Origin: Paludisphaera borealis
GTDB taxonomy: Bacteria > Planctomycetota > Planctomycetia > Isosphaerales > Isosphaeraceae
DNA: 64,000 bases
NCBI RefSeq assembly: GCF_001956985.1
Contig: NZ_CP019082.1
Span: forward strand, 2,418,001 to 2,482,000
Reading direction: 5' to 3'
Part shown: one piece after another, positions 14,966 to 25,758 of the stretch
Layout of the letters: every line of letters begins with the position of its first letter
Numbering within the stretch: the stretch's first letter is position 1
Made by a program: the position numbers and the translations under genes
The notes under the pieces: model-generated
Seen by the model: only the letters and a program-made list of their open reading frames with translations
What the model was told of the DNA's origin: nothing
Databases searched by the model: none

Positions 14966-15958
14966 ATGGCCACGCCGATCGCGATCGTCATGCTGGGAAC
15001 CGGCGACTTCGCCCTACCCTTGTTCGAGAGCCTGCACGGAGCGGGCCATCGGCTGCTGTCCCTCGTCACCCAGCCCGACCGCCCGCAGGGGCGTCATCAA
15101 GAGCTGATCCCCAGCCTGATCAAGCAGTCGGCCCTGCGCCTGGGCGTGCCCGTGTTTCAGCCCGAGAAGGTCAACGAGCCGGAGGCCGTCGAGTCGATCC
15201 GGGAACTCGCCCCCGACCTGCTGGTGACGGCGGCGTACGGCCAGATCCTCTCGCCCGAACTTCTAGGCGTCGCCCGGCTGGGAGCGATCAACCTGCACGG
15301 CTCGATCCTCCCCTCCTACCGAGGCGCGGCGCCGGTCGCCCGAGCGATCGAGCGGGGCGAGACCGAGGCCGGCGTGACCGTCATCCAGATGACGCCGAAG
15401 ATCGACGCGGGGGGCATGATCGCCGTCGCCCGGACCCCGATCGATCCCGACGAGACGGCCGGCGAACTGGAAGATCGGCTGGCGCGCCTGGGGGCTCCGT
15501 TGACGCTCGACGTCATCGAGAAGATCATCGCCGGCCGGGCCGAGATCCTCCCCCAGGACGGTTCGCTCGTCACCAAGGCCCCGAAACTGCGGAAGGAGTC
15601 GGGCGTCATCGACTGGACCCGCCCCGCGCTTGAGATCCACAACCTGGTGCGGGCGATGCAGCCCTGGCCGATCGCCTCGACCACCTGGACCGCCCTCCCA
15701 TGGACGCCCACCGGCCCGCTTCGCGTGATCGTCCACAAGACGCGCCCCGTCGAAGGCGAAGGCGAGCCCGGCGTCGTGCTGTCCGCCACCCAGGGCGACC
15801 TCGTCGTCGCCGCCGGCCAGGGGGCGATCCAACTGCTGGTCGTCCAGATTCCCGGCAAGAAACCCATGACGGCCGCGGAATTCCTTCGTGGTCGACACGT
15901 TCAGCCCGGCGATCAAATGGGTGATGGATCGAAATCGGCGCCGCGAACGTCGTCGTGA
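14966..15958 (+). CDS. fmt: Methionyl-tRNA formyltransferase, 330 aa
   Basis: This transfers the formyl group from 10-formyltetrahydrofolate to the initiator Met-tRNA. The N-terminal hydrolase-like domain shows VMLGTGDFALPLFESL, VTQPDRPQGR, VTAAYGQILS and the catalytic region INLHGSILPSYRGAAPVARA, with the Asn and His of the active site. The third catalytic residue is the Asp in KIDAGGMI. The C-terminal domain begins with DWTRPALEIHNLVRAMQPWP and ends with PMTAAEFLRG, the tRNA-binding OB fold. Length is normal. The stop overlaps a possible GTG start of the phosphatase at 15955, although ATG 16021 is the better start. Confidence 0.96.
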   Translation: MATPIAIVMLGTGDFALPLFESLHGAGHRLLSLVTQPDRPQGRHQELIPSLIKQSALRLGVPVFQPEKVNEPEAVESIRELAPDLLVTAAYGQILSPELLGVARLGAINLHGSILPSYRGAAPVARAIERGETEAGVTVIQMTPKIDAGGMIAVARTPIDPDETAGELEDRLARLGAPLTLDVIEKIIAGRAEILPQDGSLVTKAPKLRKESGVIDWTRPALEIHNLVRAMQPWPIASTTWTALPWTPTGPLRVIVHKTRPVEGEGEPGVVLSATQGDLVVAAGQGAIQLLVVQIPGKKPMTAAEFLRGRHVQPGDQMGDGSKSAPRTSS

Positions 15959-16833: not shown

Positions 16834-18411
16834 ATGAGCGACAACCGGAACGACGTGTCCCGAGCGTGGGGACTCGAAAAGCTGGGGATCGAGCGCCGAG
16901 CTTCCACGTACTGGAACCCGCCCACGGCCGTCTTGTACGAGCACGCCGTCCGGCGGCAAGAAGGACTGATCGCGTACGGCGGGGCGCTCGTCGTCGACAC
17001 CGGCGCGCACACCGGTCGGGCGCCCAATGACAAGTTCACGATCGACGAGCCGGGCAGCCGTGACAAGATCTGGTGGGGCGTCAGTAATCATCCGCTCTCC
17101 GAAGAGTCGTTCGAGCGTGTCTGGGCCCGGCAGCGGGCCTACATGGCCGACAAAGAGCTTTACGTCCAGGATTGCTATGGAGGGGCCGACCCGCGCTACC
17201 GGCTCCCCGTCCGGATCGTCACCGAATACGCGTGGCACAGCCTGTTCGTCCGCGACCTGCTGATCCGCGAGCACGCTCACGACGTGCTCCGAGCTTTCGT
17301 CCCCGAATTCACGATCATCGACACCCCCCACCTGTCCGCCGACCCCGCGACCGACGGCACCCACTCGGGGACCTTCATCCTGGTACACCTGGCGAAGAAG
17401 CTGGTGCTGATCGGCGGCACGCAGTACGCGGGCGAGATCAAGAAGTCGGTCTTCTCGCTGCTGAACTACCTGCTGCCGCAGCGCGGCGTCCTCGGCATGC
17501 ACTGCTCGGCCAACTACGGCCGCGACAAGGACGACGTCGCGCTCTTCTTCGGGCTTTCGGGGACCGGCAAGACGACCCTCTCGACCTCGCCCGACCGCCG
17601 CCTGATCGGCGACGACGAGCACGGCTGGAGCGACGACGGCGTCTTCAATTTCGAAGGCGGCTGCTACGCCAAGGTGATCGGCATTCATGCAGAGAGCGAG
17701 CCCGAGATCTACGAGACGACCCGGATGTTCGGCACGGTGCTCGAGAACGTCGTCATCGACCCGGAGACTCGGAAACTCGACCTCGACAGCAAGCGATTGA
17801 CCGAGAACACCCGCGCCGCGTATCCAATCACGCACGTCCCGGGGGCCGACCCCGAGGGCCTCGGCGGCCATCCCCGAAACATCTTCCTGCTGACGTACGA
17901 TGCCTTCGGCGTGCTGCCGCCGATCGCCCGGCTGACCCCCGAGCAGGCGATGTACCACTATCTGACCGGTTACACATCGAAAGTCGCCGGAACCGAGGAA
18001 GGCGTCAACGAGCCGCAAGTCGTCTTCAGCCCGTGCTTCGGAGCGCCGTTCCTGCCGCTTCATCCCAAGGTCTACGCCCGGCTGCTCGGCAAGAAGATCG
18101 CCGAGCATCAGGCGCGGTGCTGGCTGGTGAACACCGGCGTGACCGGCGGACCGTACGGCGTCGGCAAGCGGATCGCGATGCCGATCACCCGGTCGCTGAT
18201 CAACTCAGCCCTGGCCGGCGAGCTGGACGACGTGCCCACGAAGGTCAACGAGGCGTTCCATCTCAGCGCGCTGAGCCGGGTCCCCAGGCTGCCGCCCGAC
18301 GTCCTCGACCCGCGCGCCTCATGGCCCGACCCCGAAGCCTACGACCGCAAGGCGGCCGAGCTGGCACGGCGGTTCGAGGAGAATCATCGCAGGATCGACG
18401 TCGAGATCTGA
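16834..18411 (+). CDS. pckA: Phosphoenolpyruvate carboxykinase (ATP), 525 aa
   Basis: This catalyses oxaloacetate plus ATP to phosphoenolpyruvate, CO2 and ADP, the first committed step of gluconeogenesis. The ATP-type family is identified by GLSGTGKTTLS (P-loop, residues about 244-254), GDDEHGWSDDGVFNFEGGCY with the kinase-2 metal site, the RAPNDKF substrate site near residue 65, and NTGVTGGPYGVGKRI near the end. A GGAGG ribosome binding site lies at 16818. Length is typical. It is monocistronic and ends 21 bases before the convergent hpnR-like gene. Confidence 0.97.
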   Translation: MSDNRNDVSRAWGLEKLGIERRASTYWNPPTAVLYEHAVRRQEGLIAYGGALVVDTGAHTGRAPNDKFTIDEPGSRDKIWWGVSNHPLSEESFERVWARQRAYMADKELYVQDCYGGADPRYRLPVRIVTEYAWHSLFVRDLLIREHAHDVLRAFVPEFTIIDTPHLSADPATDGTHSGTFILVHLAKKLVLIGGTQYAGEIKKSVFSLLNYLLPQRGVLGMHCSANYGRDKDDVALFFGLSGTGKTTLSTSPDRRLIGDDEHGWSDDGVFNFEGGCYAKVIGIHAESEPEIYETTRMFGTVLENVVIDPETRKLDLDSKRLTENTRAAYPITHVPGADPEGLGGHPRNIFLLTYDAFGVLPPIARLTPEQAMYHYLTGYTSKVAGTEEGVNEPQVVFSPCFGAPFLPLHPKVYARLLGKKIAEHQARCWLVNTGVTGGPYGVGKRIAMPITRSLINSALAGELDDVPTKVNEAFHLSALSRVPRLPPDVLDPRASWPDPEAYDRKAAELARRFEENHRRIDVEI

Positions 18412-18432: not shown

Positions 18433-19989
18433 TCACACGGCCGGCTTGCCGTTGATCCGCGTCTGCTCGACGAAGTTCTCGGTGTCGGCGTCGATCGCCC
18501 GGCCGCGACGCCCGCGCGCCGGGTGGATGTAAAGCGTGTTGGGATCGACGACGTCGCGGTGCGGCGGCGGCGTGCTCATCTCGTACTTGACCGTCTGGCG
18601 GTGGTCGGCGAGTTGGAGTTGGGGGTTGAAGACGCTGTTGAACTTCCAGAGCATCCGCAGCGTGTTGGTCTGCCCTCGGCTGAGGTTGTTGGCCAGGATG
18701 CCGGCCAACGCCCCCACCGCGCGCCATCCCAGGTGCTTGCGGTTCAAGACCTGCTGCGTCCGCACCAACTCGCCGTAGAATTCGTGGAGCGGCAGTTTGG
18801 TGGGGAGCACCGCGTGCTGGATGTCGAACAGCCGGTAGTCGCGCGTGGTCAGCTTACGCGCCTCCGTCACCCAGCTCTCGGTGCCCGGATACGGCGTGTT
18901 GACGCTGATGTTGACGATCTCGGGGATCTCCAGGCACCACTGACGGATCACCTCGAATTGCTGATGGTCCCACGAGGGGTCGGCGATGATGTTGATCGCC
19001 ACCATAATGCCGAGCGACCGGGCGAATTCGAGCGCCTCGAAGTTCTTCGAAAGCGTCACCCGCTTGCGGAACCGCTTGAGCCCATCCTCATCGATCGCCT
19101 CGACGCCGAGGAACATATACTGAAGTCCGAGCGTCTTCCAGAACCGGAAGACGTCCTTGTTGCGAAGGAGGACGTCGCCCCGGGTTTCGAGGTAATACTG
19201 CTTGCGAATCCCCCGCCGCGCGATCCCCTCGCCTATCGCCATGCCGTGCTCGGCCTGGATGAACGCCACGTCGTCGACGATGAAGACGCCGGGCTCGCGG
19301 ATCGAGGCCAGCTCGTCGACCGACGCCTCGGCCGATTTGACTCGATAGCTCCGGCCGTAAAACGTCCAGGCGCTGCAAAACGAGCAATCCCACGGGCAGC
19401 CTCGGCTGAACTCGATCGAGGCGCATGGATCGAGGACGCCGATGAAGTACTTGCGCCGATGGCGCAGCAAGTCGCGCGCGGGATGGTGGTCGTCGAGGTT
19501 GCGGACGAACGCGGGAGCGGGGCCCGCGCCCGCCGCCGTGACGACGCCGGGAAGTTCGATCAGGCTCGCGGGGTCGCGATCGGACGCGGCGGCTTCGATG
19601 AGCCTCGCGACCGTGGCCTCCCCCTCTCCCTTGAGCACGCAGTCGATCGCGCCGTCGCTGTGCGCGATCATGTCGGCCGCGACAAAGGACGCGCTGTGGC
19701 CGCCGACGAAGAAAAACACGTCGGGCAGGCGATCCTTGGTCGCCTTCGCCAGGTCGACGATCTCCGGAATGTTCGCCAGGTAGTTGCATGAGAATGCGAC
19801 AACGTCCGGACGCCAGCTCTCGATCTCGCGGAAGTACGCCGCGTGGTCGTCGACCTGCAAGTCGATCAGGCGGACGTCGTGCCCCGAGCGGCGAAGCTCG
19901 GCGGCAATCGTCTCGATTCCCAACGGTTCGAGACGGAGGAAGATCTTCGTGTACATCAACGAGCTGGGATGAGCGGCCAGTATTTTCAT
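18433..19989 (-). CDS. hpnR: B12-binding radical SAM protein, HpnR-type hopanoid C-3 methylase, 518 aa
   Basis: HpnR transfers a methyl group to C-3 of the hopanoid A ring using cobalamin and S-adenosylmethionine. The N-terminal 130 residues are a cobalamin-binding domain (HPSSLMYTKIFLRLEPLGIE, IDLQVDDHAAYF, FFVGGHSASFV). The radical SAM cluster motif CPWDCSFC has its three cysteines at about 198, 202 and 205, followed by SAWTFYGRSYR, which I associate with HpnR specifically. The ATG at 19989 opens directly into homology, and the length agrees with the family. No other hopanoid gene lies near; it is flanked by convergent pckA and divergent miaB. A related B12 radical SAM methylase with another lipid substrate is the main alternative. 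Confidence 0.8.
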   Translation of the reverse strand: MKILAAHPSSLMYTKIFLRLEPLGIETIAAELRRSGHDVRLIDLQVDDHAAYFREIESWRPDVVAFSCNYLANIPEIVDLAKATKDRLPDVFFFVGGHSASFVAADMIAHSDGAIDCVLKGEGEATVARLIEAAASDRDPASLIELPGVVTAAGAGPAPAFVRNLDDHHPARDLLRHRRKYFIGVLDPCASIEFSRGCPWDCSFCSAWTFYGRSYRVKSAEASVDELASIREPGVFIVDDVAFIQAEHGMAIGEGIARRGIRKQYYLETRGDVLLRNKDVFRFWKTLGLQYMFLGVEAIDEDGLKRFRKRVTLSKNFEALEFARSLGIMVAINIIADPSWDHQQFEVIRQWCLEIPEIVNISVNTPYPGTESWVTEARKLTTRDYRLFDIQHAVLPTKLPLHEFYGELVRTQQVLNRKHLGWRAVGALAGILANNLSRGQTNTLRMLWKFNSVFNPQLQLADHRQTVKYEMSTPPPHRDVVDPNTLYIHPARGRRGRAIDADTENFVEQTRINGKPAV

Positions 19990-20391
19990 GAGGTTCAGCG
20001 GCTGATCGTAGCGGAGGAGTTTTGCCAGGTGGTTTCCATCAAGCGCGGTGCAATCCTACCAGAACCACACGCCACGAGTGCCCGCCGAGCCGGCAAGAAC
20101 CGAGGAATCCACGACGACGAAGCCCGCACGCCTTGCTCATCGCCCCTATTTTCTCTGCCGCGACGAATTCCAAGGGTTGCGGACGCCCTCCAGCCGTCAT
20201 GCCGGCCGCATTTCGGCTCGTTCTCAAGGCCTCGATCGACAGCGGTTCCCATGCCGCGCCAAGCTTGTTAGAATCAAGGTCCGGAAGCGGTCGCCCGGCG
20301 CAGGTGATTGGGCCTGTTGAAAATGGATCTCGACCCGAGAGATACCTGCCTGTCAGTCCGCGAGCCAATGAGCGGTCTGGGAGCAAGAGCG
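19990..20391. other. Divergent intergenic region between hpnR-like gene and miaB
   Basis: About 400 bases hold the promoters of both genes. The miaB frame is open from 20308, but its first 28 residues lack homology, so part of this is leader. I found no well-spaced -35/-10 pair, RNA gene or repeat. Confidence 0.4.
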
Positions 20392-21828
20392 ATGGCCGAT
20401 CAGCCGACCTCGCATCCGCGTAAGAAGTTATACATCGAGACGGTCGGCTGCCAGATGAACGTTCTGGACAGCGAGCTCGTCGTTGCGCGGTTGCGCGACG
20501 ACGGATATGAGCTGACGACCGACATCGAGGAAGCCGACGCGATCCTCTACAACACCTGCTCGGTCCGCCAGCACGCCGAAGACAAGATCTACAGCGCCCT
20601 GGGACGGATCAAGCAGCTCAAGAAGCGCAAGCCCGAGCTGTCGATCGGGGTCCTCGGCTGCATGGCGCAGAAGGATCAGAACCTGATCCTGAAGCGGGCG
20701 CCGCACGTCGACATCGTCGTCGGCCCCGGCCAGCTCGCGCGGGTGCCCGAACTCTTGACGATCGCCAAGGCCGAGGCGAAGCCGCAGCTCGCCGTGAGCC
20801 TGGCGCGCACCGCCGGGTCGCGCGACGACGTCACGTCGAGCTTCGACAACTACGACTCCGACCGCGAGCCCTCGGTCCGGCCCAGTCCGTTCCAGGCGTA
20901 TCTCCGCGTGATGATGGGCTGCGACAAGTTCTGCACCTACTGCATCGTGCCGTCGGTCCGAGGCCCCGAGCAGAGCCGGCCGCCCGACGGCATCGTCGCC
21001 GAGGCCCGCGCCCTCGCCGGCCAGGGGGTGAAGGAGATCACCCTCATCGGTCAGACGGTCAACAGCTACAAGTTCCGCGAGCCCGACGGCCGCACCACGC
21101 GGCTCTCGGACCTCCTGGCCCGGCTCCACGACGTCGAAGGCGTCGAGCGGATCAAGTTCATCACGAACTTCCCCAACGACATGACCGACGACCTGCTCCA
21201 GGCCGTCCGCGACCTCCCCAAGGTCTCGCGCTATATCCACGTCCCCGCCCAGAGCGGCTGCGACCTGGTCCTCAAGCGCATGAAGCGGATGTACACGGTC
21301 GGCTTCTACGAAGACATGCTGGCCCGGCTTCGCGAGACGATCCCCGGCTCGTCGGTTTCGAGCGACTTCATCGTGGGGTTCTGCGGCGAGACGGACGAGT
21401 CGTTCCAGAAGACCATCGGCCTGGTCGAGCGGTCGCGGTTCAAGAACAGCTTCATCTTCAAGTACAGCCCCCGGACCGGCACGAAGGCCGACGACCTGTT
21501 CGCCGACGACGTCCCGGAGGAGGTCAAGAAGCGCCGCAATCATGAGTTGCTGGAGCTTCAGACGGCGATCAGCCTGGAAGACAACATGGAGTTCGTGGGG
21601 CGGGAAACGACCGTCCTGGTCGAAGGCCGGAGCCGTTCGACGACGCGTCGGGAGGGCTGGGACGGCGTCGATCAGTTGTCGGGCCGGACGCACTGCGACC
21701 GCATCGTGGTGTTCGACGGCCCCGAGCGGTTGATCGGTCGGATGGTTCAGGTCCGGATCGAGAACGCCAGCGGCGTAACCTTGTTCGGACAGGTTGTGAC
21801 GGCCGAGCGAATCGCGTCTTCGGTGTGA
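20392..21828 (+). CDS. miaB: tRNA-2-methylthio-N6-dimethylallyladenosine synthase MiaB, 478 aa
   Basis: This radical SAM enzyme adds a methylthio group to A37 of tRNAs that read UNN codons. The N-terminal UPF0004 domain has cysteines in VGCQMN, YNTCSVR and VLGCMAQK, which bind the auxiliary 4Fe-4S cluster. The radical SAM motif is CDKFCTYC in MMGCDKFCTYCIVPSVRG. The C-terminal TRAM domain (ETTVLVEGRS to VRIENASGVTLFGQVV) binds tRNA. The start at 20392 (MADQPTSHP) fits the family length; ATG 20308 and 20368 are in frame upstream. The SUKH-like gene overlaps or directly follows the stop. Confidence 0.96.
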   Translation: MADQPTSHPRKKLYIETVGCQMNVLDSELVVARLRDDGYELTTDIEEADAILYNTCSVRQHAEDKIYSALGRIKQLKKRKPELSIGVLGCMAQKDQNLILKRAPHVDIVVGPGQLARVPELLTIAKAEAKPQLAVSLARTAGSRDDVTSSFDNYDSDREPSVRPSPFQAYLRVMMGCDKFCTYCIVPSVRGPEQSRPPDGIVAEARALAGQGVKEITLIGQTVNSYKFREPDGRTTRLSDLLARLHDVEGVERIKFITNFPNDMTDDLLQAVRDLPKVSRYIHVPAQSGCDLVLKRMKRMYTVGFYEDMLARLRETIPGSSVSSDFIVGFCGETDESFQKTIGLVERSRFKNSFIFKYSPRTGTKADDLFADDVPEEVKKRRNHELLELQTAISLEDNMEFVGRETTVLVEGRSRSTTRREGWDGVDQLSGRTHCDRIVVFDGPERLIGRMVQVRIENASGVTLFGQVVTAERIASSV

Positions 21829-21839
21829 AGGGGGAGCCG

Positions 21840-22568
21840 ATGGCGTGCCAGCTCGGCGCGCTGGTGAATTGTTGGATGGCCTGGGGCGGGATCGAGTCGA
21901 GCCTTGCGCCCGACGACGAGGTTCTGGCGACCGGTTTCGCCGAGACCGACGTCTGCCGGCCCCCCGCCGATCCCGGTGCCATCGCGGCGTGGGAGAACCG
22001 TCACGGGTTCCGCCTGCCCACGGGCCTTCGCGCCTGGCTGCTGCTCTCCAACGGCCTCTACCGCGGCGGCCCGCTGATCCACCCGATCACCGCGATCGGT
22101 CCGATGGTCATCTTCGCGCGGATGAACGAGCTGTTGATCCAGCCGGAAAGCTGGTTCGAGCTGGGCAACCCCAACATCGAAACGGTCTGCGTCGATCTGG
22201 CCTACCGCTGGCCCGGCGGCGGCCATCCAATCTTCGTCTCGGGCGACGACGAGGCCGGCACCTCCCCTCGGATCATCGCCCGGAGCTTTGAAGAGTGGTT
22301 TCTCGAACTGCTCCGCCAGGGAGGCCGGGAATACTGGCTGGACCCGGGTTCGACGGATCTCGGCGACCCCTGGGCGGCGCATCGGCGGTTCACGCCGCAG
22401 CCCGAGTTGCCCGGCCGTCTCCGTCGATTCGCCGCCGAGGTCCGTTCGCTGGTTTCGGCCCGCGTCGACGAACGCGAGATCGCGGCGCGAACCGGCCTGA
22501 GCAACGACGATGTGGAAGCGATCATCCGACACGTTCAGCACGTCCCGCCGGATTTCGCCCCCTCGTGA
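21840..22568 (+). CDS. SMI1/KNR4 (SUKH)-like domain protein, 242 aa
   Basis: The central part has the SUKH superfamily signature: IAAWENRHGFRLPTGLRAWL, LLSNGLYRGG and, towards the end, SFEEWFLELLRQGG. SUKH proteins are often immunity proteins against nuclease toxins, but many standalone members have unknown functions. ATG 21840 is preceded by GGGGGAG; a GTG at 21825 overlaps the miaB stop by four bases, so translation is probably coupled to miaB. The C-terminal 60 residues (ARVDEREIAARTGLSNDDVE) look like a small helix-turn-helix, an unusual addition. No toxin gene is adjacent, so an immunity role has no support here. Confidence 0.65.
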   Translation: MACQLGALVNCWMAWGGIESSLAPDDEVLATGFAETDVCRPPADPGAIAAWENRHGFRLPTGLRAWLLLSNGLYRGGPLIHPITAIGPMVIFARMNELLIQPESWFELGNPNIETVCVDLAYRWPGGGHPIFVSGDDEAGTSPRIIARSFEEWFLELLRQGGREYWLDPGSTDLGDPWAAHRRFTPQPELPGRLRRFAAEVRSLVSARVDEREIAARTGLSNDDVEAIIRHVQHVPPDFAPS

Positions 22569-22620
22569 ACGAGCGCCACCGCAGTCGAGTCCGCTCCCGG
22601 GTTCGTTGGAGATCTCGTCG

Positions 22621-25600
22621 TTGCACGCCCATCGGCTCCTGAGCAAGCTCGCAAACCTGGAAGACGCGCGCGAGTGGCTGGTCGGTCTGGGCGTTCGCGA
22701 CGCCAAACGGGGCGTCGATGATCTGCTCGATCTGGTCGGCCGCTGCGGTTCGGACTCGAACGACGTCGTCGTGAGAATCCTTGAGCAGCTCGAAGTCCTC
22801 CTCCCGCGTTGCTCCGATCCGGGCATGGCGCTCACGAACCTCGATCGTTACGTCGCGGCCCTGGCGACCCCGCGAGGCGGCCTTGCGAGGCTGGCCGTGC
22901 GGCCGAGGGCGACCGAGACGCTGCTTCAGGTTTTCAGCACCAGCCAGCATCTCAGCGAGGTCTTGATCCGCAGTCCCGAGCTGATCGACTGGTTGCAGTC
23001 AGGCGCCGAGCGTCGCGATCGCCAGACCCTGATCGACGACCTCTGGAACATCCTGACCAGGAGCGAACCGGCCGACGATCATCGGCTGGCCCTCCGCCGG
23101 TTCCGGCTCCGCGAGACGCTCCGCATCGGCTACAACGACATCGTCCGGGGTTTCCCGCTCGAAGTCACCACCGTCGACCTCTCGAACCTGGCCGACGCCT
23201 GCGTCGAAGCGGCGACGCGGCTGGCGCGGGCGTCGGTCGAATCGCGTTACGGAACGCCGATGCGAGCCGACGGCGAGCCCGCTCGGTTCGTGGTCCTGGG
23301 CCTGGGCAAGCTCGGCGGGACCGAGCTGAACTACAGCTCGGACATCGACCTGATCTTCATGTACGACGAGGACGGGATGACGCGGGGGCCTCGGGTCGTC
23401 TCGTCGTCCGAGTTCTTCGCGCGGATGGGGGGCGAGGTGGTCCGGCTGCTGGCCGATCACACCCAGCTCGGCATGGCGTACCGCGTCGACATGCGGCTGC
23501 GGCCGGAGGGCGACCAGGGGGTCCTCGTCCGCTCGTTCGACGCCACGATGGGCTATTACGTCACGCGCGGTCGGACGTGGGAGCGCCAGGCGCTCATCAA
23601 GTGCCGGCCGGTCGCCGGCGACCTCGATCTCGGCCGCGGCTTCATCGAAGCCATCACGCCGTTCATCTACCGACGCTATTTGAGCGCCTCGGAGATCGCG
23701 GAAATCAAGGCGCTCAAGCGGCGGATCGAGCAGCGGACGGCCTCGGCGGGACGGGCCGAAGTCGAGGTCAAGACCGGCCGCGGCGGCATTCGCGACGTCG
23801 AGTTCGTCGTCCAGTTCCTCCAGCTCCTGCACGGCGGCGAATACCCCGAGGTCCGCGGCCCTAACACGTTCGAAGCCATCGACCGCCTCGAACAGCTCGG
23901 GTCGCTCACCGCCGAAGAGCGCGCCGTGATGGACGGCACCTACCGGTTTCTCAGGCAGGTCGAGCACCGGCTCCAGATTCTCTTCGACCGCCAGACCCAC
24001 GAGATGCCGCGCGACATCGAAGACCTGCGCACCCTGGCGATCCGGATGGGATACACCGCGCAAGGCGCGCTCGACGAACGGTCCGGCCCGGCCCATCGGT
24101 TCCTCGCCGACTACAAGAGCAAGACCGAGCTGAACCGCCGCATCCTCGACCATATCCTCCACGACGCCTTTCTCGATGACGCGGGCGCCGAGGCCGATCC
24201 GGTCGTCGACCTGGTCCTCGACCCCGATCCTAGCGATGAACTCGTCGCCGAAGTGCTCGGACGATACCCGTTCCGCGACCGCGCCGGCGCGTATCAGAAC
24301 TTGATGGCGCTGGCGCGCGAGGATTTCCCGTTCCTGTCGCACGCGCGCTGCCGGCACTTCCTGGCGTCGATCGCGCCTCGGCTGATGCAAGCCCTCGGCC
24401 AGACCGCCGACCCCGACCTGACGCTCGCGAACCTCGAAAAAGTCTCGGCCTCGCTCGGCGCTAAGGCGATCCTCTGGGAGCTGTTCAACTTCAACCCACC
24501 GAGCCTGCGGCTGTACGTCGATCTCTGCGCGACCAGCCAGTTGGTCTCACGGCTCTTGATCACGAACCCCGGCATGATCGACGATTTGATGGATTCTCTG
24601 GTCATCGACCGGCCGCTCCCGGGCGCGGCGATCAAGGCCGAACTCGCCGAGCTGACCAAGGGCGCGGAAGACCTCGCGCCGATCCTCTGGAGTTTCCGCA
24701 ACAAGGAGTGGGTGCGCATCGGCACGCGCGACGTGCTGGGGCGCGAACCGATCCGCGAGGTGACGCGCGAGCTGGCCGACGTCGCCGAGGCCGTCGTCGG
24801 CCAGATCGCGCGCAACCAGTGGACCCAGCGCGCCAAGCGGTTCGGCGTCCCAACGCGCGCGACCGACGGCGCGCGCGACCGGTGGGCGATCCTGGCTCTC
24901 GGCCGACTCGGCGGACGCGAGCTGAACTACCACAGCGACCTTGACCTCGTCTTCCTCCATGAGAGCGACGGACAGACGATGAGAGGCGTCGATACGACCT
25001 CGAATCAGCAGTTCGTGACCGAGGTCGCCCAGCGGATGCTCAAGGCGCTGGGGCGCGACGCCCTGACCGGGACGCTCTACCAGGTCGACACCCGGCTCCG
25101 ACCCCACGGCGCCGCCGGGCCGCTGGTCAACACCCTGGAGTCGTTCACGCATTACTATGAGACCGCCGCGCAGTCATGGGAACGACTCGCACTGACGCGC
25201 GGGCGCGTGATCTTCGCCACCGGCGGCTTCGGCCGCGAGGTCGGCGAGGCGCTCCGCGCGATTCTCACAGCGCCCGTGGACCCGGCGACGATCGGCCCCG
25301 AAGTCGCCGCCATGCGCCGCCGGCTCGAAGATTCACGCAGCCGAAACGACCTCAAGCGGGGCATCGGCGGGTTGGCCGACGTCGAGTTCATCGTCCAGTA
25401 TCTCATGCTCGTCAACGCCGCCCAACGGCCCGATGTGCTTCGTACGAATCTCTGGGACGGGCTCGACGCGCTCCTGAAAGCGGGCGTGCTCCCAGCCGAC
25501 ATGCACGCCGAGCTTCGCGACATCTACAACTTCCTCCGAAGCGTCGAGGCTCGGCTCCGGCTGGTCCACGACCGCGCGGGGACCGAGCTTCCAGAGGACC

Positions 25601-25758
25601 CCGACGACCTGACCCGACTCGCGCGTCGGCTCAACTACGACGCCGCCGATCCAACGCTCGCGGTCTCCACGTTCCTCCTCGACTCGGCCCGGTTCACCAC
25701 CCGCGCCCGGGCGATCTTCCAGCAGATCATCCTGTCCGAAGACAAGCCGGAGGCGTGA
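22621..25758 (+). CDS. glnE: Bifunctional glutamine synthetase adenylyltransferase/deadenylase, 1045 aa
   Basis: This attaches and removes AMP on glutamine synthetase in response to nitrogen status signalled by PII. The protein is two copies of a nucleotidyltransferase plus helical domain. The N-terminal adenylyl-removase half has LGLGKLGGTELNYSSDIDL (near residue 226) and the C-terminal adenylyltransferase half has LALGRLGGRELNYHSDLDL (near 758). Both halves also contain GRGGIRDVEFVVQFLQ-like and GIGGLADVEFIVQYLM-like helices. The start is TTG 22621 with GGAG about eight bases upstream; the frame is open to 22510 but overlaps the SUKH gene. Length is slightly above that of E. coli GlnE. Confidence 0.95.
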   Translation: MHAHRLLSKLANLEDAREWLVGLGVRDAKRGVDDLLDLVGRCGSDSNDVVVRILEQLEVLLPRCSDPGMALTNLDRYVAALATPRGGLARLAVRPRATETLLQVFSTSQHLSEVLIRSPELIDWLQSGAERRDRQTLIDDLWNILTRSEPADDHRLALRRFRLRETLRIGYNDIVRGFPLEVTTVDLSNLADACVEAATRLARASVESRYGTPMRADGEPARFVVLGLGKLGGTELNYSSDIDLIFMYDEDGMTRGPRVVSSSEFFARMGGEVVRLLADHTQLGMAYRVDMRLRPEGDQGVLVRSFDATMGYYVTRGRTWERQALIKCRPVAGDLDLGRGFIEAITPFIYRRYLSASEIAEIKALKRRIEQRTASAGRAEVEVKTGRGGIRDVEFVVQFLQLLHGGEYPEVRGPNTFEAIDRLEQLGSLTAEERAVMDGTYRFLRQVEHRLQILFDRQTHEMPRDIEDLRTLAIRMGYTAQGALDERSGPAHRFLADYKSKTELNRRILDHILHDAFLDDAGAEADPVVDLVLDPDPSDELVAEVLGRYPFRDRAGAYQNLMALAREDFPFLSHARCRHFLASIAPRLMQALGQTADPDLTLANLEKVSASLGAKAILWELFNFNPPSLRLYVDLCATSQLVSRLLITNPGMIDDLMDSLVIDRPLPGAAIKAELAELTKGAEDLAPILWSFRNKEWVRIGTRDVLGREPIREVTRELADVAEAVVGQIARNQWTQRAKRFGVPTRATDGARDRWAILALGRLGGRELNYHSDLDLVFLHESDGQTMRGVDTTSNQQFVTEVAQRMLKALGRDALTGTLYQVDTRLRPHGAAGPLVNTLESFTHYYETAAQSWERLALTRGRVIFATGGFGREVGEALRAILTAPVDPATIGPEVAAMRRRLEDSRSRNDLKRGIGGLADVEFIVQYLMLVNAAQRPDVLRTNLWDGLDALLKAGVLPADMHAELRDIYNFLRSVEARLRLVHDRAGTELPEDPDDLTRLARRLNYDAADPTLAVSTFLLDSARFTTRARAIFQQIILSEDKPEA

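Follow-up and report, generated by a model that had tools for sequence, protein, structure and literature searches.

Does the planctomycete Paludisphaera borealis, whose type strain comes from boreal wetlands and is in culture (PMC5352709), encode a methylase acting on C-3 of hopanoids, and what would such a gene mean for the use of 3-methylhopanoids as biomarkers? The question is raised by one open reading frame in a 64,000-nucleotide stretch of the chromosome (the window), which a first-pass annotation had read as an HpnR-type gene. In the literature searched as full text, a body that leaves most subscription journals uncovered and includes PMC12195314, PMC7231039, PMC12493201, PMC4919349, PMC11868695 and PMC12697185, there is no earlier report of HpnR or of 3-methylhopanoids for planctomycetes; the text of the P. 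borealis genome paper mentions neither hopanoids, nor squalene, nor radical SAM (PMC5352709). The gene thus adds a member to an established enzyme family, from a phylum on which these searches gave no earlier report, and the NCBI model would label such proteins automatically.

The reading frame (Table 1) is intact, with 518 codons from ATG to stop. Its GC content by codon position is 0.63/0.42/0.88, similar to that of the adjoining pckA and miaB genes, and because codon-position GC and homology both favor it over overlapping plus-strand frames, such as the one at 18523-19791, a chance or antisense frame is rejected. The product matches TIGR04367, the NCBI equivalog model of HpnR, with 900.9 bits (cut-off 650, E = 1.7e-271) over model positions 1-488 of 490, and none of the 19 other models listed reaches its cut-off. 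The second-best model is BchE, at 169.1 bits against a cut-off of 481.35, and this identity is rejected, as are HpnJ (67 bits, cut-off 578) and TIGR04072 (70 bits, cut-off 360). Judged by its sequence, then, the frame is a member of the HpnR family, well supported at the gene level; the first-pass annotation had both the family and the coordinates right.

Table 1. Features discussed in the text. Coordinates are positions in the window, except in the last two rows, which refer to loci from anammox genomes
Feature	Coordinates	Strand	Evidence
hpnR (518 aa), predicted hopanoid C-3 methylase of the cobalamin-dependent radical SAM type	18433-19989	-	TIGR04367; ORF and translation; trees
Cobalamin-binding domain of hpnR product, residues 15-130	19600-19947	-	PF02310, 82.2 bits (cut-off 32.1)
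Radical SAM domain of hpnR product, residues 192-351	18937-19416	-	PF04055, 58.3 bits (cut-off 29.5)
CX3CX2C cluster motif CPWDCSFC, residues 198-205	19375-19398	-	Cysteines invariant in alignment
HpnR-typical stretch SAWTFYGRSYR, residues 206-216	19342-19374	-	SAWTFYxRxYR in HpnR rows only
miaB, divergent neighbor that borders the hpnR site on one side (start codon uncertain)	20308-21828	+	TIGR01574, 462.9 bits (cut-off 355.3); positions in relatives
fmt, other border of the hpnR site	14966-15958	+	TIGR00460, 255.4 bits (cut-off 201.5)
pckA (PEP carboxykinase), convergent neighbor	16834-18411	+	NF006820, 774.8 bits (cut-off 636); synteny
glnE, in conserved block beyond miaB	22510-25758	+	NF008292, 670.2 bits (cut-off 487); synteny
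HpnR of anammox genome G106	L136:8688-10235	-	866 bits, over cut-off
HpnR of anammox genome G248	L137:8838-10385	-	862 bits, over cut-off

The cobalamin-binding N-terminus and the two motifs on which the first-pass annotation had relied are all present (Table 1). The two motifs differ in what they tell. Cysteines 198, 202 and 205 are common to all 56 HpnR rows and all eight outgroup rows of our alignment, as is expected of radical SAM enzymes generally; the pattern S-A-W-T-F-Y-x-R-x-Y-R occurs in 56 of 56 HpnR rows versus none of the eight outgroup rows, and is specific to HpnR in this sense. In total, 123 positions are invariant across the 56 HpnR rows, the window protein included. An AlphaFold model of the product, computed from an input of 27 sequences, has a mean pLDDT of 75.3 and a pTM of 0.80, with pLDDT below 50 at residues 197-214, which make up the cluster loop. 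Its best matches in the PDB, at 16-22% identity, are MgmA, OxsB, CysS and TokK, which are cobalamin-dependent radical SAM enzymes.

Phylogenetic analysis places the protein inside the HpnR clade. The first tree had 64 rows, 56 of HpnR and eight of outgroup, in which the non-planctomycete rows represent 29 of 70 such loci found within the best 80 of 487 relatives; Methylococcus capsulatus is represented by strain Texas in place of strain Bath. One outgroup row, present in the first tree only, is a Methylobacterium soli protein (L163) that is a candidate HpnP by its sequence features. The window protein groups with HpnR and away from this row, the other outgroup rows and HpnJ, so that identity with HpnP is rejected, with this single candidate as the reference. 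The second tree (67 rows) gained Kozakia baliensis and seven Alphaproteobacteria and lost five long outgroup rows. Neither contains rows known to come from Actinobacteria, Acidobacteria or NC10, and deep HpnRs of other phyla may be absent from them. Among the alphaproteobacterial matches, one in genome G514 consists of two abutting pieces (L179 and L180), each below the cut-off, which may reflect a disrupted gene or a misassembly.

In the first tree, 17 Isosphaeraceae rows form one clade (support 99/98) inside a crown clade (100/100) that also holds Methylococcaceae, Nitrospirota, other Pseudomonadota, Rokubacteria and two anammox rows. The second tree recovers the Isosphaeraceae clade at 100/100 and the crown at 100/99; M. 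capsulatus Texas lies in the latter, as does Kozakia baliensis DSM 14400. The sister of the Isosphaeraceae is Methylobacterium soli plus Caballeronia in the first tree (93/82), and the second tree resolves no sister. Eight planctomycete rows, belonging to six other family codes, fall outside the crown clade. The deep position of planctomycete HpnR that these rows suggest is a lead only, because several of them have long branches, flagged by the tree program, and because the rows from outside the phylum are biased towards window-like sequences.

The substrate pathway appears to be present in the same genome. The assembly has 7,651,896 bases in three contigs, the first of 7,497,544, in line with the published PX4T genome of a 7.498 Mb chromosome and plasmids of 111.833 and 42.519 kb (PMC5352709). 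Our search took in shc, hpnC, hpnD, hpnG and hpnH. The gene for squalene-hopene cyclase, shc, is located at chromosome positions 5795266-5797152 (719.5 bits, cut-off 431.1), about 3.36 Mb from hpnR. It is directly followed by hpnH (439.3 bits, cut-off 225.05) and then by a gene for an HpnG-like protein, whose 110.8 bits are below the cut-off of 187.1. Elsewhere, a tandem pair encodes HpnC (331.6 bits, cut-off 250.45) and an HpnD-like enzyme, at 271.4 bits just short of its cut-off of 278.6. The check for shc and hpn genes that had been proposed along with the initial reading thus finds shc, hpnH and hpnC over their cut-offs, and hpnD-like and hpnG-like genes below theirs. Of the outcomes named there as counting against the reading, neither a position outside the HpnR clade nor a genome devoid of squalene-hopene cyclase is observed.

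HpnR scores over the cut-off in 17 of 45 Isosphaeraceae genomes, in five of 21 genera, and in all six genomes of P. borealis' own genus. One genome scored as a non-carrier, G394, has 41 hpnR codons with 88% identity at a contig end adjoining miaB; at least part of the gene is therefore found in 18 of 45 genomes, a set that comprises every genome sampled from the five genera. Among the 17 over the cut-off, G407 has a stop inside the match. Since shc is found in 44 of the 45 genomes, its co-occurrence with hpnR is uninformative inside the family. An even sample of the phylum, in which up to three candidates per genome were scored and weaker matches were taken from those listed, comprises 392 genomes, 12 of which, P. 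borealis included, have an HpnR that clears the cut-off. A match in genome G037 (L101) was left out of the 12: it covers HpnR positions 2-207 with 340 bits, below the cut-off, in a 232-codon frame at the end of a short contig, and may be an HpnR truncated there. Five other planctomycete B12 radical SAM proteins (L102, L103, L104, L106 and L109), relatives of HpnR, have 222-307 bits on the HpnR model, below the cut-off, and served as outgroup only. In two genera of another planctomycete family (f60, genomes G198 and G220), the order hpnR-sucC-shc is found on one strand (L138:6452-11382, minus; L139:6645-13378, plus), an arrangement that, among planctomycetes, links hpnR with the hopanoid pathway; L139 has an extra ORF between hpnR and sucC.

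Two of the 12 carriers in the phylum sample, G106 and G248, belong to genus g114 and encode the alpha subunit of hydrazine synthase (1579 and 1598 bits against a cut-off of 800); they are therefore anammox bacteria. This call used the full hydrazine synthase model and PDB structure 5c2v, which the G248 protein matches, in place of the domain PF18582 alone; the latter was dropped as a test, as G306 and G044 also match it. In G248 both genes are on the same 3.46 Mb contig, which speaks against contamination, and in G106 they are on separate contigs. Across the anammox family, HpnR over the cut-off is found in two of 33 genomes, both of g114. Like the Isosphaeraceae copies, the anammox HpnRs exceed the cut-off and belong to the crown clade; unlike them, they are placed beside Rokubacteria in both trees (91/92, then only 81/45).

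The site of the gene may tell how it was acquired. In P. borealis, the interval from fmt to miaB holds hpnR, pckA and one further gene; both borders are also visible in L009, L011, L067 and L081. The adjacency of pckA and hpnR is limited to the window and two loci of the same genus (L009 and L011), and we do not take it as a functional or pathway link. In 13 of the 18 carriers miaB is on the hpnR contig: ten have it divergent and within 0.6 kb (six of the same genus, G405, G412, G377 and G394), and in G411, G409 and G392 it lies 3.6, 13 and 27 kb away, respectively. Four carriers have miaB on a different contig (G393, where fmt is 1 kb from hpnR, G407, G408 and G410), and it was not found in G413. 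We took the miaB regions of 17 of the 27 non-carriers. There fmt lies within 400 bp of miaB in 11 of 17 and at 2.2 kb in G402; it is absent from the stretch in five, one of which ends 3.9 kb past miaB. No hpnR remnant was seen at these 17 regions (best E 4.1). In a MiaB tree of 27 rows, sampled from 10 of 18 carriers and these 17 non-carriers, the ten carriers group together as a single, moderately supported clade (92/84). Since 11 of these 17 non-carriers have fmt and miaB as neighbors and the carriers share a MiaB clade, the simplest account is one gain of hpnR between fmt and miaB, followed by inheritance in five genera.

The same distribution might be the outcome of old descent within Planctomycetota and many losses, not of transfer into Isosphaeraceae. 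The eight planctomycete HpnRs outside the crown clade would fit such a history, and a single clade of the Isosphaeraceae with those eight is not rejected (p-AU 0.132). The crown clade, however, joins Isosphaeraceae to Pseudomonadota and Nitrospirota with high support in both trees, a single clade of all 27 planctomycete rows is rejected (p-AU 0.0036), and fmt adjoins miaB in 11 of the 17 hpnR-less relatives, with no remnant of hpnR. One clade of Isosphaeraceae and anammox rows is rejected as well (p-AU 0.027), for a group named after the tree had been seen. We consider old descent with losses quite unlikely; entry into the ancestor of the five Isosphaeraceae genera, once and most likely by horizontal transfer, would account for the data better.

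Since its arrival the gene appears to have been maintained. Between P. borealis and Paludisphaera soli dN is 0.096 and dS 0.70, and in a closer pair they are 0.018 and 0.26; over six Isosphaeraceae pairs dN/dS is 0.07-0.22, a range from which the anammox pair was excluded, as its dS of 3.98 is saturated. Low dN relative to dS indicates purifying selection. Taken together, the reading frame is very probably an HpnR that acts on a hopanoid of the same cell, having entered the ancestor of the five genera once and been kept by purifying selection since.

By analogy with the cobalamin-dependent radical SAM C-methylases of class B, C198, C202 and C205 would carry a [4Fe-4S] cluster that cleaves S-adenosylmethionine to form a 5'-deoxyadenosyl radical, which would abstract a hydrogen from C-3 of the hopanoid A-ring; methylcobalamin in the N-terminal domain would then donate a methyl group to C-3, and the cobalamin would regain its methyl group from a second S-adenosylmethionine. 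The expected substrate is a hopanoid that the cell itself builds by way of HpnC, the HpnD-like enzyme, Shc and HpnH; most probably it would be an extended bacteriohopanepolyol. As HpnR methylated bacteriohopanepolyols and not C30 hopanoids in an alphaproteobacterial survey (PMC12583986), the products in P. borealis are likely to be 3-methyl bacteriohopanepolyols.

Whether these would accumulate is another matter, because the presence of the gene does not guarantee the product: in the same survey, 3-methyl hopanoids were missing in culture from four of 12 hpnR-bearing alphaproteobacteria, and methylation in Rhodospirillales except Komagataeibacter was below 0.25% (PMC12583986). Methylobacterium soli, which supplies one of the HpnR rows of our trees, is one of the four. 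P. borealis may likewise carry a protein that is HpnR by ancestry yet stays silent or acts only under special conditions, and show no detectable 3-methylhopanoids. We give this an appreciable but minor chance. Against it, none of the 18 genomes sampled from the five genera lacks hpnR (17 over the cut-off, of which one has the internal stop, and one cut by a contig end) and its dN/dS is low, so that it must be useful at least sometimes. A further alternative is a change of function. Cobalamin-dependent radical SAM enzymes methylate many substrates, hpnR does not adjoin shc in P. borealis, and the protein might have come to act on another lipid or another carbon. This has very little chance of being correct, given that the window protein shares the 123 positions invariant in all HpnR rows, lies within a clade bracketed by M. 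capsulatus and Kozakia, and belongs to a gene family that co-occurs with shc across the phylum sample: TIGR01507 is matched at E 1e-60 in 154 of the 392 genomes, including all 12 with HpnR (Fisher p 1e-5, with genomes that are non-independent). We therefore retain an HpnR acting on hopanoids as the preferred reading.

3-Methylhopanoids have found wide use as biomarkers of bacteria that oxidise methane (PMC8590665), and the first-pass annotation held that a planctomycete source would matter for this use. It does add a possible source; the methanotroph-only reading, however, had already been broken by other producers, Rhodopila and the acetic acid bacteria among them (PMC8590665, PMC12583986, PMC5462960), and a 3-methylated lipid is listed also for nitrite-reducing methanotrophs (PMC5516240). 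Since the acetic acid bacterial, phototrophic and nitrite-reducing methanotroph cases had weakened the marker before, the surprise is limited, and a planctomycete source extends the list of producers and does not overturn it. Methylated fossil hopanes may, as far as gene content can tell, have had more makers than methane-eating bacteria. With carriers in the terrestrial Isosphaeraceae and in anammox bacteria, the set of possible sources in peat, soil and oxygen-poor water would become larger. It is rather doubtful, in our opinion, that Planctomycetota are a broad source of 3-methylhopanoids, with an anaerobic anammox genus and the deepest HpnR lineages among them, and that part of the 3-methylhopanes found in rocks goes back to planctomycetes or to anaerobes of the nitrogen cycle and not to aerobic methanotrophs. 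As P. borealis is in culture, a planctomycete source is directly testable by lipid analysis.

Among known systems, the closest are the HpnRs of M. capsulatus and Kozakia baliensis, with 70% (strain Texas) and 63% identity to the window protein, respectively. They share with it the full-length domain order, the cluster motif, the HpnR-typical stretch, a score at the equivalog level and the clade; the differences are in the host phylum and in the site between fmt and miaB. Kozakia baliensis DSM 14400 made small amounts of 3-methyl bacteriohopanepolyols (PMC12583986). Its annotated hpnR gene is on plasmid pKB14400_3 (L171:4001-5542, plus strand), a location that makes plasmids a possible route of transfer. 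Unlike the window protein, the candidate HpnP of Methylobacterium soli reaches only 44 bits with the model of HpnR and is placed among the outgroup rows; HpnP is the hopanoid ring-A (C-2) methylase (PMC12583986). BchE, HpnJ and TIGR04072, which are B12/radical SAM enzymes of pigments and lipids, belong to the superfamily of the window protein, and its scores on their models are far below the cut-offs. MgmA, OxsB, CysS and TokK, finally, have solved structures with the folds nearest to the predicted model, but act on other substrates.
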